Shown here: positions 16,797 to 24,680 of the stretch, piece after piece
Layout: each line of letters starts with the position of its first letter
Position numbering within the stretch: position 1 is the stretch's first letter
Source: Leptolyngbya sp. Heron Island J
GTDB lineage: Bacteria > Cyanobacteriota > Cyanobacteriia > Phormidesmidales > Phormidesmidaceae
Assembly (NCBI RefSeq): GCF_000482245.1
Contig: NZ_AWNH01000112.1
Span: forward strand, 124,001-188,000
Reading direction: 5' to 3'
Length of the DNA: 64,000 nt
Translations under genes and position numbers: made by a program
The notes under the pieces: model-generated
Seen by the model: the letters and a program-made list of their open reading frames with translations, nothing else
The model's database searches: none
Told to the model about the DNA's origin: nothing

Positions 16797-17438
16797 TTAA
16801 GCAATAGGTTGTTTGCGCTGGAGGAAACCTGTTAACAACGCCAGGGCAAAAGCTCCTAACATTGCAAATGCTAGGAGCAGTTTGCCACCAGCGAGTAGAC
16901 CGGCTCCCAAGGCGACGATCGGTGGATTGGAGATGAGTATGCTGAGTGCAAGCGCTGGTATAAAACACAGCCAGGATGCCTGGGTGAGACCAATGGCGTA
17001 AGCAACAAAATCAAAAAAGCCTGTCATTAAAAAGGCAGTCATCAAGAAAAAGTTGCGTTCTAGATGTTTTTGACTGAGGGTGTCAACGCGGGTAATAAAT
17101 TTCTCACCGACTAACCGTTTAACAAAGCTACGTCCAAACTGTCGTGACAGAAAAAAGCTGAGACTACAGGAGCACAGGTCGGCAATACAAATAACCAGCA
17201 GTCCCTGGGAGAATCCGAGTAGTCCCCCCGCAAGTATGGAGTAGGCGGTGCCGGGTAGGGCAGGGATAATGACGCTGGTGAAGCGTAGAAAAAATAAGAC
17301 TAGTGGTGCCCAAACCCCCAGGTTTTCAACGTTGGCGTGAAGCTGGCTGATCCCGTAGCGCTGAATGACCCAGATAATTAGAATGGTTGCGATCGCAATC
17401 CCTACCAAGCGTAGCCACTTACCATATTTAGAATTCAT
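16797..17438 (-). CDS. VTT (TVP38/TMEM64, DedA-like) membrane protein
   Basis: A 213-aa integral membrane protein of the TVP38/TMEM64 family, related to DedA and VTT scramblases. It has an N-terminal membrane segment (about 9-27), the re-entrant core with the typical PALPGTAYSILAGGLLGF segment near residues 58-76, and further hydrophobic helices to residue 205. The family moves or flips lipids, with roles in membrane homeostasis; the substrate here is unknown. It lies 64 nt downstream of the cyclic-nucleotide-binding gene on the same strand and may be cotranscribed. Confidence 0.85.
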   Translation of the reverse strand: MNSKYGKWLRLVGIAIATILIIWVIQRYGISQLHANVENLGVWAPLVLFFLRFTSVIIPALPGTAYSILAGGLLGFSQGLLVICIADLCSCSLSFFLSRQFGRSFVKRLVGEKFITRVDTLSQKHLERNFFLMTAFLMTGFFDFVAYAIGLTQASWLCFIPALALSILISNPPIVALGAGLLAGGKLLLAFAMLGAFALALLTGFLQRKQPIA

Positions 17439-17502
17439 GCTTCAACGCCTGACTCTCAAGTTTCTATCGTAATTTGGTACAGCAAATTAACCCATAACCC
17501 CA

Positions 17503-18093
17503 TCAATAGGGCCACGGGCTTTCATAACGAGTGATTGTTTCCTGAGGCTTGGAAGAGCGCCGTCCTGCTACACGAGCGCTTGTAGCAGGACGACTCGTCT
17601 GAGTGCTGGGCAATTCTTGCAAAGCATCCTGCAAGATCGGTGAGACTTTTGTGGTCTGGTTGCTAGGCTGTCGATTACGCTCTTTATTAATTTCACGAAT
17701 GCGGCGCGACAGCAATTTAATAATATTGACCGCGATGCCAGGGGTTTCATCAATGGCCTCATACAGCTGCTGCTGAGTCAGGACCAGACAATCACAGGCG
17801 CTGATGGTGGTGACCGAAGCTGACCGGGGTTCGGCATCAAACAAGGACATCTCACCAAAACAGGTTCCCTTATCCAGAGTCGTCAGGTCTTGCGATCGCA
17901 AATGTACCCTGACTTGTCCCGATACCACGATATAGAGTGAGTTTCCCTCTTCCCCCTCCCGAAAAATCCGATGGTTTGCCGGAAACGATAGCTCATCCAT
18001 AATCGACGCTAGCCGCACCAAAAAGTCGTCCCGCAGCTCTGTAAAGATGGGAACAGCCCGTACGAACAATAAACGATCAACGCTGGTGAGCAT
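17503..18093 (-). CDS. Cyclic-nucleotide-binding domain protein without DNA-binding domain
   Basis: A 196-aa protein with one cNMP-binding domain (about residues 5-130). Its phosphate-binding cassette reads FGEMSLFDAEPRSASV, with the Glu and Arg that contact the cyclic nucleotide. Unlike Crp/Fnr regulators it has no C-terminal helix-turn-helix; the last 60 residues are Ser/Thr/Arg-rich and probably disordered. It lies 192 nt downstream of the ATP/ADP-carrier-like gene on the same strand. It may make transport or another neighbour respond to cAMP, since an adenylate cyclase is encoded 6 kb away; that connection is inference. Confidence 0.88.
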   Translation of the reverse strand: MLTSVDRLLFVRAVPIFTELRDDFLVRLASIMDELSFPANHRIFREGEEGNSLYIVVSGQVRVHLRSQDLTTLDKGTCFGEMSLFDAEPRSASVTTISACDCLVLTQQQLYEAIDETPGIAVNIIKLLSRRIREINKERNRQPSNQTTKVSPILQDALQELPSTQTSRPATSARVAGRRSSKPQETITRYESPWPY

Positions 18094-18285
18094 AGTGAGC
18101 CTGGTTTAGAGCAATAGTAATCGTCATTCATTCACCACACAGTGCCAGAGGCCCCCTGGAAACAGCCCCTATCATCTGGTTATGGCAGTTTACCCCCCTG
18201 CTGAAGCCGATGCAATCTTCCTCAGTACATCCACAGAGGAAATTACTAAATCTATATCAAACATACCCACCCTGGGGCGATTGCT

Positions 18286-21243
18286 TTATTTCGCTATCAC
18301 ATGCTTAGCCATCATTCTGTCTACCTGAGCTGCCACCAGGGGATCGGGATCTTTTTCCATACCAGATAAGACCCGTCCTAAAATCCGTGGTGAGGCCATA
18401 TCCAGGTAGCTTAAAACAGCCTCTCGTACAAATCCCACTGGGTGACGTAGGGATGCCATCACATGGTCACCTTTGATGCCCCAATGTTCAGTACGGGCGA
18501 CATGAAAGCAGCAGGCTAATGCCCAATCTGATAGAAAATGTCTGAGCTCAATTAGACAACCTAAGCGTTGTTGCGGAGGCATGGGTTGATAAGCAATCAA
18601 CGGCTTTAGCGCCGTGAGAATAGCCGCCTCGCTGGGCTGATCAAATAAGGTCAGAATCGCTCGTTTAGCTGGGATATCTAAAGTGTTGTCTAAAATCTCT
18701 AATCCCCTAGCTCGACTCGCAGCTGAGCCACCTAAACTCAGTTCCGCCGCTTGAATGGTAGACGACGGATAGAGAAATCGCATCAGCAACAGTATCCGGG
18801 CCATGGCGTCGGTTTTCATATCTTGTATAGCTCGACGCAGCCAATCAAAGACTTCCCCTGGAGCCTTATCGGGTGAGCAATCAATCAGACCGCTGTAGAG
18901 CTGACCAATGAACTTTAATTCCTGGTTGAGCAGGGTTTCCACGCCCTGGCGACCCAGGCTATCAAGGGCCAGGTCAATGTCGGATGAACGACGCAGATTT
19001 TGTTCATCTGAGAGTTTTAATAAGATGCGTAAGATCCAACGACGGGGAGTGCCCCAGGCTGTCATCAGGTTAGCCGCCATCAAATTCAAGGCATTGAGGG
19101 TGCCGATGCGGCCCATCACTGTCCAGCACTGGTGCCGTAGGGTATCAGGCTGATAGGGATCGTTCGCCAGTTTAGTCAGCCTGGGCAGGGCATCGTCCCC
19201 CAGATTTACCAGGGCCTGCATGGCTGCTTCGCGGGTGGACTTATAGGTGAGGGCCTTGAGTAAGGATGGATAGTGTTCTTCTAACTGGGTAGCTGCGATC
19301 GCGCCTAACATTGACCGCCGTACCCTTAGCGAATCGTCCTGCAACAGCTTTGGCACATGCAGCCGTAACCCCTGCATATACTCAGCTTCACCGAGCGCAC
19401 GACAGCCCATCACCCGTTCTCTTTCTTCCCGATGGGTAAGCATCTGCCGCAAAATATACGTCGCCCGTGCCCGTTCTTCAAGGCTGCCATGTTTGAGCAT
19501 GATCGAGGCTGCAGTGCCCCGCACCACTGGATCAACACTACGTTTGAGATAAGGTTTGAGCTTGCTCACATCTGCATTTTCCTGGGTACGCCAGACATAG
19601 CGCAGTGCCAAGGCCAAAATTGACGGCTCTTGGGCTGGAAAAATTAGGGCATCCACATAGTCGGTAAAGGTGGAGTCTGTATAGACCAGCATGGTTTCCA
19701 AACTTTGCTGCTGCAAACTGGGGGAGAGTTCACTCAACATTGGTGCGAGCACTTCACTAATGCTGCGGGGCTCAATTTGGGTCAATAGCTCGATTAGGGA
19801 GCGTTTGTCGGCTTCGGGACCGGGTTTATCTAAAGCCTCAATAATGGCCTGCTTTAACACCCGTAAACTGGCATCGGAAAAGCTTAACAGCCCCCGCTCA
19901 GCTGTTAGTACCAGCAGGTTGAGGTATTGCGATCGCAACAAAAAGATACTCCCCAACCACAGCAAAGACAGCCCCAGGGTGATTACCAAAAAGATGCTGT
20001 TCTTGGGTATCCAGCTAATGCGATCCGCCAAAGCCATAATCAGCAAAATGCCCACACCGACTACGCCAATTGCCAGGGATTCTGCTACGCCTACCAGGGA
20101 CTGTACCCTGGCCCGGCGCTGGGCCGGCACCGGCTGAAATAAGACCGGGCGGGCACTAGCAACAACGGTATAGCGCAGCCATTCATCAATAAACTTAAGG
20201 ACGACCAGCCCGATAAACAACCCATTTACATTCATCAAAGCAGGCACCAGACTGACCCCCAGACAGAGGCTGCTTAAGACCCCCAAAAGAGAGGGCAACA
20301 GACCGGCTGTAACAAATAATCCCAAGCGCTCAATCAGACGACTGGAGGTAAATAGCTGGGTGATGAGCTCTATCAATCCCAATACCCCGGTAAAGATGCC
20401 GAGGAACCTAGCCATGTCGTCAACGCTAAAATTCCGAATTGTCAGCTGATGGAGATATTGGTATTCCACCAGGTACAGCAACATCTGGGCAATGATAAAG
20501 AAGCTTAGTAACAGCAACACGTAGCGCCGAATCAGCTTACGCAGCCGTCTGGCGGAAAAGTTGGCATTGGAAACTTCAACCGTACGTCGCTTTGAATCGG
20601 GAAAAGCATGTTCGTAGGTGCTGCTGATATAAAACAACACTCCCGTGGCCACCAACATGATGCCCAGCACCAGGTAGATAACATTTTGAACATCTAAAAA
20701 ACTAAGCAGGGCAAATAAGGTAAACCCGCTCAGGACATCAGCCACCAGGTTACCGCTGCTCACCAACGGGAAGGTGCGTTTAAGTTCACGGATGTTAAAT
20801 AGCTGGTTGGCTAGTACCGACAAATTCAGTTCATTCAGGTTGGTAATCGCCTCCATCCACAGCCGCATGGCAAAAATCGTTAGCGGTGCCCATAGGGCCA
20901 CACTCAGCCCAATCCGAAACAGAAAAATAGGCAGGGTCATCAGCAAAGCAATGAGCACAATCACCTGACGCAGCGGCATCAGCCGCTGAAGCCAGGAATA
21001 AATGCTGCCCAAACTCACACCCACTAGGGCAGTAAATAGATAAATTAGCGGTAGTCTGTCTGCGCCATACTGATTGAGAAACAACGCGGCTGAACTCACC
21101 TCAAGCCACATGATGCCCATGGACATGAGGGTATAAAAAACAAACAGTAACAGCGTTCGATGACCTTCACCTGTACGCAGGTTAAGTACCTTGAAGATAT
21201 TTTGGACCCAGGGAGCCTGAGTGTAGGAAGGGGTTGACTGCAT
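18286..21243 (-). CDS. ATP/ADP-carrier-like (NTT/Npt) membrane protein fused to HEAT repeats
   Basis: A large protein (985 aa). Residues about 30-440 form a twelve-helix membrane domain resembling the Npt1/Tlc nucleotide carriers and MFS proteins. Residues about 450-980 form a cytoplasmic solenoid of HEAT-like repeats, for example VRGTAASIMLKHG, VRRSMLGAIAATQ and REAVLSYLDM. In cyanobacteria such proteins are widespread but uncharacterised, and nucleotide transport is not shown. ATG at 21243 is preferred to the TTG two codons upstream. The pseudo-caspase gene lies 156 nt upstream and the cyclic-nucleotide-binding protein 192 nt downstream, all on the same strand, which suggests one functional unit. 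Confidence 0.8.
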   Translation of the reverse strand: MQSTPSYTQAPWVQNIFKVLNLRTGEGHRTLLLFVFYTLMSMGIMWLEVSSAALFLNQYGADRLPLIYLFTALVGVSLGSIYSWLQRLMPLRQVIVLIALLMTLPIFLFRIGLSVALWAPLTIFAMRLWMEAITNLNELNLSVLANQLFNIRELKRTFPLVSSGNLVADVLSGFTLFALLSFLDVQNVIYLVLGIMLVATGVLFYISSTYEHAFPDSKRRTVEVSNANFSARRLRKLIRRYVLLLLSFFIIAQMLLYLVEYQYLHQLTIRNFSVDDMARFLGIFTGVLGLIELITQLFTSSRLIERLGLFVTAGLLPSLLGVLSSLCLGVSLVPALMNVNGLFIGLVVLKFIDEWLRYTVVASARPVLFQPVPAQRRARVQSLVGVAESLAIGVVGVGILLIMALADRISWIPKNSIFLVITLGLSLLWLGSIFLLRSQYLNLLVLTAERGLLSFSDASLRVLKQAIIEALDKPGPEADKRSLIELLTQIEPRSISEVLAPMLSELSPSLQQQSLETMLVYTDSTFTDYVDALIFPAQEPSILALALRYVWRTQENADVSKLKPYLKRSVDPVVRGTAASIMLKHGSLEERARATYILRQMLTHREERERVMGCRALGEAEYMQGLRLHVPKLLQDDSLRVRRSMLGAIAATQLEEHYPSLLKALTYKSTREAAMQALVNLGDDALPRLTKLANDPYQPDTLRHQCWTVMGRIGTLNALNLMAANLMTAWGTPRRWILRILLKLSDEQNLRRSSDIDLALDSLGRQGVETLLNQELKFIGQLYSGLIDCSPDKAPGEVFDWLRRAIQDMKTDAMARILLLMRFLYPSSTIQAAELSLGGSAASRARGLEILDNTLDIPAKRAILTLFDQPSEAAILTALKPLIAYQPMPPQQRLGCLIELRHFLSDWALACCFHVARTEHWGIKGDHVMASLRHPVGFVREAVLSYLDMASPRILGRVLSGMEKDPDPLVAAQVDRMMAKHVIAK

Positions 21244-21399
21244 GGGCAAATAGGGCCGCTAACATTAAGCCGCTGACGATCATGCCAAAGACGCTACCGG
21301 ATTATCTGCTAATCGGCAATAGTCAATCGGCGCAACTAACGTGCCTAGTTTGCCCATGGGGCGTGCTAGTTAAAAAACTGGTTTAGAGTAGCGCTTGGT

Positions 21400-22620
21400 T
21401 TAGCGATAGTGGGAGCCATCGATGCTGCCGTTGGGGTTTAAGGCGCTGGCCGGTAGCTGGGGCTGATCAACCGGGGGTAACCATTGGGGTAATGCTTGCA
21501 GATGGTCGTGGGTGGGGTTGATCAGTTGGGTCTCAATGGCAGACACGTCTTCGTAGCTAAGCGAGAGTTCACTCTGGAGGTGGCGCAACCACTTTTTTAA
21601 TGACGTTCCCAGGGGAGTTTCTAGCTCCAGGGCTGCGGTGAGGGCATGGCGGTAGCGATCGCAATTCTGCTGATGGTCCGCATAGGGAGCCAGCACCTCG
21701 GCTTCAATTACCTGACTTTCGTGGGGAGTAATACCCAACTGAAACCGCAAAAAATCTAAGACATTACGCTCATGGGGCAGAATCTGGCCCCGATGGCGAT
21801 GGGCATAGTTCTCAACGGTGCGACGATATTCGCGCGCGGGGGAGTAGGGCGGCACCCGTAGCAGGAGATCTGCCTCCGAATTGTCAGTGTGTTGCCCAAA
21901 GCGAGCAATCGGAAAAATGTCTCGATCCGTTGCAGCCAATGCTTGAGCCATGTAAGCCTGCAGGTCATTCACCGAAATTTCCCCATCGGCATCAATGTCG
22001 GCTAGCCCGGTCGTTAGTCCTTCAATCAAACATTGGGTATAAAGTGACAGCTCCACGTCGGTCATGGGCCAGGGCTGGGTGTGACTGCCCAGGGCGGTAA
22101 ACAGGGCGCAGTTACAGTCCGCCAGCTGGGCCACCGCCAGGCGATTTTTGGGCTCCGCTTCCATAGTCATGTCTGCTGCTATGGGTGCCCTGTCCAACTG
22201 TGGCAATGCTCCCCACATGCAGTCTAGAACCATGACTCGACTCAGCCCCTGTTGGATGGAAGGCAGCGCCTGGCGAATATAGTCACTGGAAATAGCGGTA
22301 GTGGTAATGGCATCCAGACGTGTGTCGTTTGCAGGCAGATAAAATGTCCCAGTCCGAGCATCAATCACACCGCAGCCAGTGTAATAAATCAGACATAGCT
22401 CATGGTGACGACACCGATAGGTCGTCAGGGCAATGGCATGGCGCATTTGCCGCAGGTTGGGGTTGATTAGAGTGGTGACTTGATCCTCACGCAGGGCATC
22501 GACTTCAGTCAGTAGAGCATGTTTGAGGGCGGCAATGTTTGCGATCGCAGGTGATTGCTCAGCATAAGCCTCGGCCAGTTCCCCCACACTCACCCCAATT
22601 AACAATATGTGCTTGCCCAT
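21400..22620 (-). CDS. Caspase-like (peptidase C14) protein with both catalytic residues replaced
   Basis: A 406-aa protein with a caspase p20-like domain (about residues 1-220). The usual His motif (Y-F/Y-S-G-H-G) reads YYTGCG, with Cys83 where His is expected. The usual D-C-C-H-S-G motif reads LDCMWGA, with Met135 in place of the nucleophilic Cys. It is therefore very probably inactive as a protease. Cyanobacterial pseudo-orthocaspases are known, but a Cys/Met pair is unusual. An EF-hand-like loop (D208 to D219, DIDADGEISVND) follows, as in active cyanobacterial homologues, so calcium binding may survive. The C-terminal 170 residues match nothing recognised. It leads a four-gene co-directional cluster. 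Confidence 0.8.
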   Translation of the reverse strand: MGKHILLIGVSVGELAEAYAEQSPAIANIAALKHALLTEVDALREDQVTTLINPNLRQMRHAIALTTYRCRHHELCLIYYTGCGVIDARTGTFYLPANDTRLDAITTTAISSDYIRQALPSIQQGLSRVMVLDCMWGALPQLDRAPIAADMTMEAEPKNRLAVAQLADCNCALFTALGSHTQPWPMTDVELSLYTQCLIEGLTTGLADIDADGEISVNDLQAYMAQALAATDRDIFPIARFGQHTDNSEADLLLRVPPYSPAREYRRTVENYAHRHRGQILPHERNVLDFLRFQLGITPHESQVIEAEVLAPYADHQQNCDRYRHALTAALELETPLGTSLKKWLRHLQSELSLSYEDVSAIETQLINPTHDHLQALPQWLPPVDQPQLPASALNPNGSIDGSHYR

Positions 22621-22910
22621 GGCTCTGTGCTGCTTCCCAAAGGAGTGGATGAACGCTTTAGTAATCTGTTATTAGTTGTTTAACTGCTTGTATAAAAAAT
22701 TCTTCGCCCAGGCTAACTTTCGGGATGGTATTGGTGAGTCCTCCCGCTTCTGGTCGTAAATGGTTTAGATTGCCTCAGTAGGGTATGGATGTCGGCTCAA
22801 ATAAAGCACCTGCCAACGACTTCGATTGGCAGTCAGGGTTCTATGCAAATAGTTATGGCAGAGGCCAGTTTTCTAGATAGAATAATGGGCCATCCATCAC
22901 TGTTCCTCCC

Positions 22911-23447
22911 ATGAAACATACCCTTTCTGTTTTGGTAGAAGACGAAGCAGGTGTCCTTTCTCGAATTGCTGGATTGTTTGCCCGTCGTGGCTTTAACATC
23001 GAGAGCTTGGCCGTTGGTCCGGCTGAGCAGACGGGGGTTTCTCGGATCACGATGGTGGTGCCTGGTGATGACAGCGTGATTGAACAGTTGACCAAACAGC
23101 TTTACAAGCTAATCAACGTACTAAAGGTCAATGACATCACTGAGAAACCCTGTGTTGAGCGTGAGCTGATGTTGCTTAAAGTTAATGCCAACAGCAACAC
23201 CCGGTCAGAGATCATTAACTTTGCCCAAATTTTCCGAGCCCGAGTGGTAGATGTTTCCGATGATTCGCTCACCATCGAAGTGGTGGGCGATCCCGGAAAA
23301 ATGGTGGCGATTGTTCAGGTCTTAGACCGCTTTGGAGTGCGTGAAATTGCTCGCACTGGCAAAATTGCCCTCACCCGTGAATCGGGGGTGAATACCGAGT
23401 ATTTGAAGGCAAAAGCCCCAGCCAGTATCGTACTCGGTCAGGTTTAA
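22911..23447 (+). CDS. ilvH: Acetolactate synthase small (regulatory) subunit
   Basis: This 178-aa subunit binds the catalytic acetolactate synthase subunit and makes it sensitive to valine feedback in branched-chain amino-acid synthesis. An N-terminal ACT domain begins at once ([20 protein letters not shown], about 1-75) with the conserved [15 protein letters not shown] second domain follows (about 80-165), ending with [15 protein letters not shown]. Length and motifs are complete. The catalytic subunit gene is not in the window, which is usual in cyanobacteria. ATG at 22911 has no competitor. Confidence 0.95.
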
Positions 23448-23465
23448 TTTTCTTCACAACTCAAC

Positions 23466-24680
23466 TCAACCCTGGGCTAACAGCGTTTTGGCCAAAATTT
23501 TAGCAATGCGCTGTCCGGCCCCCGGCGGTCCCATGCGATACAGTCCATTTTTATAAATGGTTGCCTGACGTTCGGGGTCATTCATCAGGGTGGTCAGGGC
23601 CTGATAAATCTGATGGGGCTGATGTACCAGCGTTACCGATGGGCCAAGATGCCGGGCCTGGGCCTGGGCAAAACTGACGGTGAATTGGGGGCCGTTGCCC
23701 GGTAGACTCAACACGGGTTTACCCAAGCCCACAAACTGCTCAGTGGCAGTTCCGGCGGTTGCGATCGCAACACTAGCTCGATGCGCATACTCCGCAAACG
23801 AGCCCTGATCAATGAGCAACCGATGCCCCTGTTTTTGATACTGCTGCTGTCCCTCTGCCTTCACCTGCCAGCCGTAGCGGCTTAATTCCGTTGTGAGTTT
23901 TTCCAGCTCTAGCCCCGGAGCCGCCGCCGTCAGAAACGTGACCAGTGTATGGCTATGGTCAACAATGTCATCAGCCCCCTGCAACAGCCTGTGCCAGTTT
24001 TCATAGGCTTCTGGCGCGCGCGACCCTGGCAATAGAAGCACCGTCAACGCTTGTGGCTTTAACAGGTGGCTGGTGGGGATCGAAAACCCATCCATCATCG
24101 GGTTACCCGCATCATAGGCATCCACGGACCAGCGCCGCAGTCGGTGCGTTGTTATGCCATCACGGGGAAACACACAGACGCTGCGTTTCATTAACCAGCG
24201 TTCCCAAGGCATATAAACACAGGTCCGCTGAAAATCCACCACGTCCAACAGGGTGGATCGTTCAAAGCATTGACCCTGTTCGTCCCGCACATAGTATTCA
24301 GATTTAGCCGTCCCCACAAATCCATAGGCACGACGGCTTAACCAGCCAAACAATAAGGGCACAATATCCCCTACCGCCAGGACCACATCGTCTGCCCCTA
24401 ACCATTGCTTCATCGCCTGTAGCTGAGCAATAGTCAGCTGTAGCAGTCCCCCCTGCAAATCACGCGCCAGCTGCTGACCATCCATGTAGATAAATCCACC
24501 GGACGGCATTTGCTTGGTCGGTCCAATAATCTCAATACCCAGTTTTTGGTACTGTCGCCCCTCACCCACAATCGGTAAAGCCGCCATTTGCAAAGTTGGC
24601 AATATGCCTTGGAGGGCCTGCAAAACTTTGATGGCAATCAAATCCTCACCATGGCCATTGCTGATACAAAGCAGTCTCAT
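23466..24680 (-). CDS. Lipid-A-disaccharide-synthase-related glycosyltransferase
   Basis: A 404-aa protein of the group often annotated lipid-A-disaccharide synthase-related, present in cyanobacteria and distinct from true LpxB. The N-terminus CISNGHGEDLIAIKVL and the central VLLLPGSRAPEAYEN, followed by the C-terminal nucleotide-sugar site VAIATAGTATEQFVGLGKPV, fit a GT-B fold. Substrate and product are unknown. It is convergent with ilvH, with 18 nt between their ends. Confidence 0.8.
   Translation of the reverse strand: MRLLCISNGHGEDLIAIKVLQALQGILPTLQMAALPIVGEGRQYQKLGIEIIGPTKQMPSGGFIYMDGQQLARDLQGGLLQLTIAQLQAMKQWLGADDVVLAVGDIVPLLFGWLSRRAYGFVGTAKSEYYVRDEQGQCFERSTLLDVVDFQRTCVYMPWERWLMKRSVCVFPRDGITTHRLRRWSVDAYDAGNPMMDGFSIPTSHLLKPQALTVLLLPGSRAPEAYENWHRLLQGADDIVDHSHTLVTFLTAAAPGLELEKLTTELSRYGWQVKAEGQQQYQKQGHRLLIDQGSFAEYAHRASVAIATAGTATEQFVGLGKPVLSLPGNGPQFTVSFAQAQARHLGPSVTLVHQPHQIYQALTTLMNDPERQATIYKNGLYRMGPPGAGQRIAKILAKTLLAQG

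Follow-up and report, generated by a model that had tools for sequence, protein, structure and literature searches.

A clade of cyanobacterial orthocaspases with a substituted catalytic dyad on a retained caspase scaffold

Human FLIP(L) and trypanosome MCA4 are caspase-fold proteins without a working dyad, the pseudo-caspase FLIP(L) either activating or blocking caspase-8. Both are eukaryotic and have other adaptor domains, and they offer a functional analogy only to the bacterial protein described here, which likewise combines a caspase fold with a non-working dyad. The closest described systems are the YS and YN pseudo-orthocaspases of cyanobacteria (Klemencic et al. 2019, PMC6426788), which have a caspase fold, are presumed inactive and have both dyad residues replaced; the accessible sections of that survey describe both S1-type Asp residues as highly conserved in the pseudo-variants. 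SyOC of Synechocystis, a pseudo-orthocaspase with a Tyr-Gly dyad according to the same sections (PMC6426788), affects tolerance to H2O2 (accessible text of PMC7889975), so pseudo-orthocaspases can matter to the cell. The protein studied here shares with the YS/YN types the fold and the double substitution and is distinguished from them by a Cys-Met pair, the loss of one S1-type Asp, a helical tail and an EF-type loop.

The window, a stretch of 64,000 nucleotides from the genome of Leptolyngbya sp. Heron Island J (G000), carries the pseudo-orthocaspase gene on the minus strand (21400..22620; all features of the protein given below lie on this strand), an open reading frame of 406 amino acid residues with its ATG at 22620. 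Cys83 (22372..22374), in the motif YYTGCG, occupies the column of the catalytic His and Met135 (22216..22218), in the motif LDCMWGA, that of the catalytic Cys, which makes the protein a pseudo-orthocaspase in the sense that at least one dyad residue is substituted. The two columns were concordant in three alignments, namely a MAFFT alignment with 33 relatives, an hmmalign alignment of 102 rows and a MAFFT alignment with caspases of viral contigs, and misalignment of the dyad is thereby ruled out. The initial annotation had read the dyad as lost in these two motifs of this reading frame, the coordinates of which stand as given, and all three alignments bear the loss out. Another His-Cys pair, which would offer an alternative site, is not conserved through the clade in the alignment, and sequencing error is excluded because G016 and G040 carry the Cys-Met pair as well. 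The pair had also been thought unlike the common Tyr/Ser pseudo-variants. It differs from both the Tyr-Ser and the Tyr-Asn type; Cys-Met is indeed missing from the dyad lists in the accessible text of PMC8283722 and PMC7475262, supplementary tables aside, which include Cys-Asn, Cys-Ser and Cys-Tyr, although absence from print is not claimed. On the aligned sequences the dyad of the window protein is lost, and we strongly infer that proteolysis has been lost with it. What was kept makes a non-proteolytic scaffold or regulator its most likely role, and the reading preferred here, with a probability of roughly 0.65, is that of a catalytically dead orthocaspase that works as a non-proteolytic, calcium-responsive scaffold for binding.

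Matches at 1e-5 were found in 43 of the 57 genomes of the family. The clade itself, as delimited with a profile of ten of its members, is present in 12 of the 63 genomes searched of the order. Scores there run from 321 to 673 bits, whereas no place beyond them exceeds 254. The 12 are seven of the eight genomes of the window's genus together with G005, G014, G022, G019 and G010. The query shares 62% identity with records from Leptolyngbya sp. PCC 7375 and Adonisia turfae. Across the phylum, 30 of 386 genomes match the near profile at 1e-40, and of the loci from outside the family that were fetched and aligned (15 of the 45 matched places yielded no locus), only L108 (Tyr-Gly) and L111 (Arg-Gly) depart from His-Cys. 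Searches for mobile relatives gave three plasmid records, the best at 29% identity, and no relative among the viral contigs searched with the clade profile. A His-Cys caspase that has an EF-type loop is encoded on one IMG/VR contig (L123); in the best segment it shares 38% identity with one of the orthocaspases in the window's genome.

None of the clade members in the 12 genomes has a His-Cys dyad. The pairs found were Cys-Met (G000, G040, G016), Tyr-Leu (G002, G029), Cys-Leu (G024, G034), Cys-Cys (G005), Leu-Arg (G014, G022) and Ala-Ser (G019), while the frame-split member in G010 has Ser and Gly at the dyad positions on its two pieces. By column, position 83 is Cys in six, Tyr in two, Leu in two and Ala in one of 11 clade rows, and position 135 is Leu in four, Met in three, Arg in two and Cys, Ser and Gly in one each of 12, against 54 His and 54 Cys, respectively, in the comparison set. 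That set, from which duplicates and rows below 240 bits were excluded and L108, L111 and L032 (Tyr-Cys) set aside, is His/Cys by construction, and the informative part is therefore the clade rows. Several scaffold positions are constant in the clade: Gly82 and Gly84 are conserved in 11/11 rows and Tyr194 and Thr195 in 12/12, and its hallmark, Trp136 (22213..22215), occurs in 12/12 clade rows and 0/54 His-Cys rows. Gly170, invariant in the 54 His-Cys rows, is replaced in the clade by Asn (10) or Tyr (2).

One of the two S1-type Asp residues has also changed. Asn28 (22537..22539) replaces the first, the AxxN of the clade aligning with the CxxD of Arabidopsis metacaspase-4 in a profile search of the PDB (E 0.0044); the query sequence by itself found no caspase match there. 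From the same Cys-x-x-Asp spacing, this Asp would equal Asp95 of trypanosome MCA2, named together with Cys92 in the accessible text of PMC6426788 and PMC4357240. Residue 28 is Asn in ten clade rows and Thr in one, as against Asp in 47 and Gly in six of 53 His-Cys rows, whereas the second, Asp133 (22222..22224), is kept in 12/12 clade rows and 54/54 His-Cys rows. The window protein thus has one of the two conserved Asp residues, and since six His-Cys rows also lack the first, having Gly there, possession of both defines neither the family nor activity. Six relatives (L024, L031, L033, L037, L040 and L049) keep His-Cys, have Gly for Asp28 and have lost the Asp residues of the EF-type loop; L040 sits in the window's genome.

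A tree of 69 rows unites all 12 clade rows on one branch with support 100/99, which the long-branched L108 joins at 95/95. L108 (also L120, from G283), a pseudo-orthocaspase of Tyr-Gly type, shares the clade's Trp and has C-terminal WD40 repeats. In a second tree, which includes YN but no confirmed YS rows, a branch with SH-aLRT 98 separates ten clade rows from seven Tyr-Asn rows, and the window protein does not group with the YN pseudo-orthocaspases. End branches also differ, reaching up to 0.06 for the nearly frozen Tyr-Asn rows of the genus and 0.14-0.46 for the clade's genus rows. The window's genome has one of these Tyr-Asn proteins as well (contig C36; L003, L121), nearly invariant across the genus. 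The clade adds a new lineage and a new variant to the pseudo-orthocaspases and, by its position in the trees, arose beside the His-Cys orthocaspases and apart from the Tyr-Asn pseudo-orthocaspases of the same genomes; most simply, the dyad would have been lost once in its ancestry. The drift of the dyad columns, the 100/99 branch beside His-Cys rows and the separation from the Tyr-Asn type all argue for a dead protein kept as a scaffold.

The initial annotation had proposed that the fold and an EF-hand-like loop remain, and both are recovered. A structure model built from 13 rows had a mean pLDDT of 67.8 and a pTM of 0.58 (a first model from 3 rows was poor, pLDDT 38.6). Its residues 1-256 (21853..22620) form the caspase-haemoglobinase (p20) fold; Foldseek matched the model to MALT1 (E 6.9e-7), and VIA-align gave MALT1 the best Z (21.4, 198 residues, 2.5 Å), followed by caspases and metacaspases. 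Because the rows supplied were caspases, the model supports the fold and not the function. The EF-hand-type loop spans D208-D219 (DIDADGEISVND, 21964..21999), with all six loop positions intact in 8/8 near rows. If Asn and Ser are admitted, the loop pattern fits 10/12 clade rows and 44/54 His-Cys rows; the loop is worn in G014, G022 and G010, and the Pfam EF-hand model is weak on the query (E 0.21). The predicted fold, the conserved scaffold residues and the loop in 8/8 near rows favour a calcium-responsive scaffold.

The sequence comparison shows that one S1-type Asp was lost along with the dyad, the positions of which drifted afterwards. Fold, helical tail and second S1-type Asp were retained, and so was the EF-type loop, apart from its wear in a few members. 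The peptide-sized cleft of the caspase fold, lined by the hydrophobic Met135 and Trp136, could then serve as a binding site, the EF-type loop as a Ca2+ sensor and the tail as a tie to a binding partner, for which a His-Cys orthocaspase with the same tail is one possibility.

Cysteines are more frequent in the near rows than in the His-Cys rows. With the catalytic column excluded, eight near rows have a mean of 7.25 Cys (range 4-9) as against 2.2 (0-5) in the 54 His-Cys rows. C70 and C76 are fixed in 8/8 near rows; C70 occurs in 2/54 His-Cys rows, and Cys is not among the commonest residues of the latter at column 76. The genus branch may thus have gained Cys 70, 76, 83, 169, 171 and 320 as a redox switch or metal site that took the place of the protease. 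This is unlikely, as the near rows have one common history, G005 lacks C169 and C171, column 83 is Tyr in two near rows, and the query ranks fourth in Cys content among the 31 ORFs of the window, for which reason the enrichment is a lead only. A composite, in which the caspase fold, having lost the dyad and one S1-type Asp, has become a calcium- and thiol-responsive signalling part with C70/C76/C83/C169/C171 as metal or redox site, the EF-loop as input and the tail as output, is quite improbable. Several Cys and His residues that the near rows retain (C70, C76, C134, H61 and H347) would be the candidates if the protein were still an enzyme by means of another residue. This we regard as extremely unlikely, since no His-Cys pair runs through the clade and C134, beside the true nucleophile, is also common in the His-Cys relatives (41/54).

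A pseudo-orthocaspase would be expected to have no separate metacaspase p10 domain; in the window protein the region after residue 256 is helical and Tic110-like. Residues 256-370 (21511..21855) align with His-Cys orthocaspases and GUN4-bearing proteins, and a profile of the tail matches the Tic110 structure 4bm5 (E 1.8e-7); Pfam Tic110 is weak on it, with E values no higher than 0.5 in 7/18 members and a lowest value of 1.3e-4. The tail is also found in frames of 537-552 residues with a GUN4 domain and without a caspase match (L044, L045). In the window's genome the only other copies are in two His-Cys orthocaspases, L004 and L040, both of which match Peptidase_C14 and FGE-sulfatase. They resemble the window protein in placing this helical domain after a caspase domain and differ from it in retaining the dyad and carrying the extra FGE domain.

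This restricted distribution raises the possibility that the tail brings the pseudo-orthocaspase together with the two His-Cys orthocaspase-FGE proteins, which it would then activate or block, much as FLIP(L) does with caspase-8. Related bacterial systems are described as having adaptor domains in common and effector copies that are inactive (accessible text of PMC7159879). Further tail proteins besides that of the pseudo-gene, with His-Cys paralogues of the same tail, occur in G000, G002, G024 and G029 (4/7 gene-carrying genus genomes). The other three, G016, G034 and G040, have no second tail protein at E<=0.001, and two of them are more than 90% complete, which weighs against a fixed partnership with a tail-sharing active paralogue; nor is any His-Cys orthocaspase among the identified neighbouring genes. 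Regulation of the paralogues is accordingly a tentative and rather doubtful alternative. Of the regulator or binding-partner role suggested in the initial annotation, the tail in common with two His-Cys paralogues is in its favour, and the three sister genomes that hold the gene without a tail partner count against it.

At the locus the gene order is ilvN, the window gene, a 987-residue HEAT-repeat protein, a cNMP-binding protein and a VTT protein. The HEAT-repeat neighbour (18286-21249) has an N-terminal part without a family match. The order is conserved in G002, G029, G016, G034 and G024, and partly on the short contig of G040; it is not conserved in G005, G014, G022, G019, G010 and G283, so that an operon partner was rejected. 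Nine neighbouring proteins scanned in G005, G014, G010 and G019 include methionine synthase, STAND-type NTPases, a VTT protein, DUF2808, a decarboxylase, a transketolase, a transposase and the like. The clade member of G014 adjoins a gene for a VTT-domain protein (L051:4886-5737). In the window the VTT protein lies three genes off, and the search used does not identify the two as one gene. Promoter and terminator patterns at the locus were no commoner than in shuffles.

The window gene evolves faster than its surroundings, with 54-67% identity across the genus against 74-94% for five adjacent genes (16797-24680). This could mean weak constraint and counts against a scaffold function, as do the Cys (without His) in the nucleophile column of G005, the worn loop in three genomes and the split frame in G010 (L022, L117), a possible pseudogene or assembly error. 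A decaying gene without function, to which the fast evolution and the split relative would point, is nevertheless very unlikely: the open frame is full-length in 11/12 clade genomes, the gene is present in 7/8 genus genomes, the clade-specific Trp is in 12/12, and dN/dS is below 1 in a close pair. That one pair, with 20 base and 7 residue differences, gives a dN of 0.0075-0.0087, a dS of 0.032-0.047 and a dN/dS of about 0.16-0.27, which is little data. Presence in 7/8 genus genomes, the kept gene order and the low dN/dS thus support a dead orthocaspase retained as a scaffold.

Family models detect the clade poorly. The best family match is NCBIfam NF047832, the EACC1-associated type caspase, which aligns with residues 5-230 (7e-20) at 71.4 bits, under its cut-off of 140; four related clade rows, at 74-95 bits, also fall short, whereas L004 and L040 pass. 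Pfam PF00656 (Peptidase_C14) does not match the query in either a protein scan or a search of its own genome, where the model finds eight other places. In the 11 other clade genomes it detects the clade member in two (G019, 6.9e-6; G022, 2.5e-5) and at 0.01 misses it in nine, so that 10/12 members are missed overall in genome searches; the G014 protein scanned alone scores 21.0 bits against a cut-off of 21.4. Membership in a defence system was rejected, as PADLOC assigned no family to the query, though its caspase model matches both His-Cys paralogues of the window's genome.

A large survey of bacterial caspases was built, according to its accessible text, on a PF00656-derived (C14) model (PMC6426788), and since that model misses 10/12 clade members, dead caspases of this type are probably under-counted in surveys based on it. 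In the clade, nature has provided a series of at least six different residue pairs at the drifting catalytic positions, all on one retained scaffold. Together with the tail-sharing His-Cys paralogues in four of the seven genus genomes, this series makes the role of dead bacterial caspases testable.
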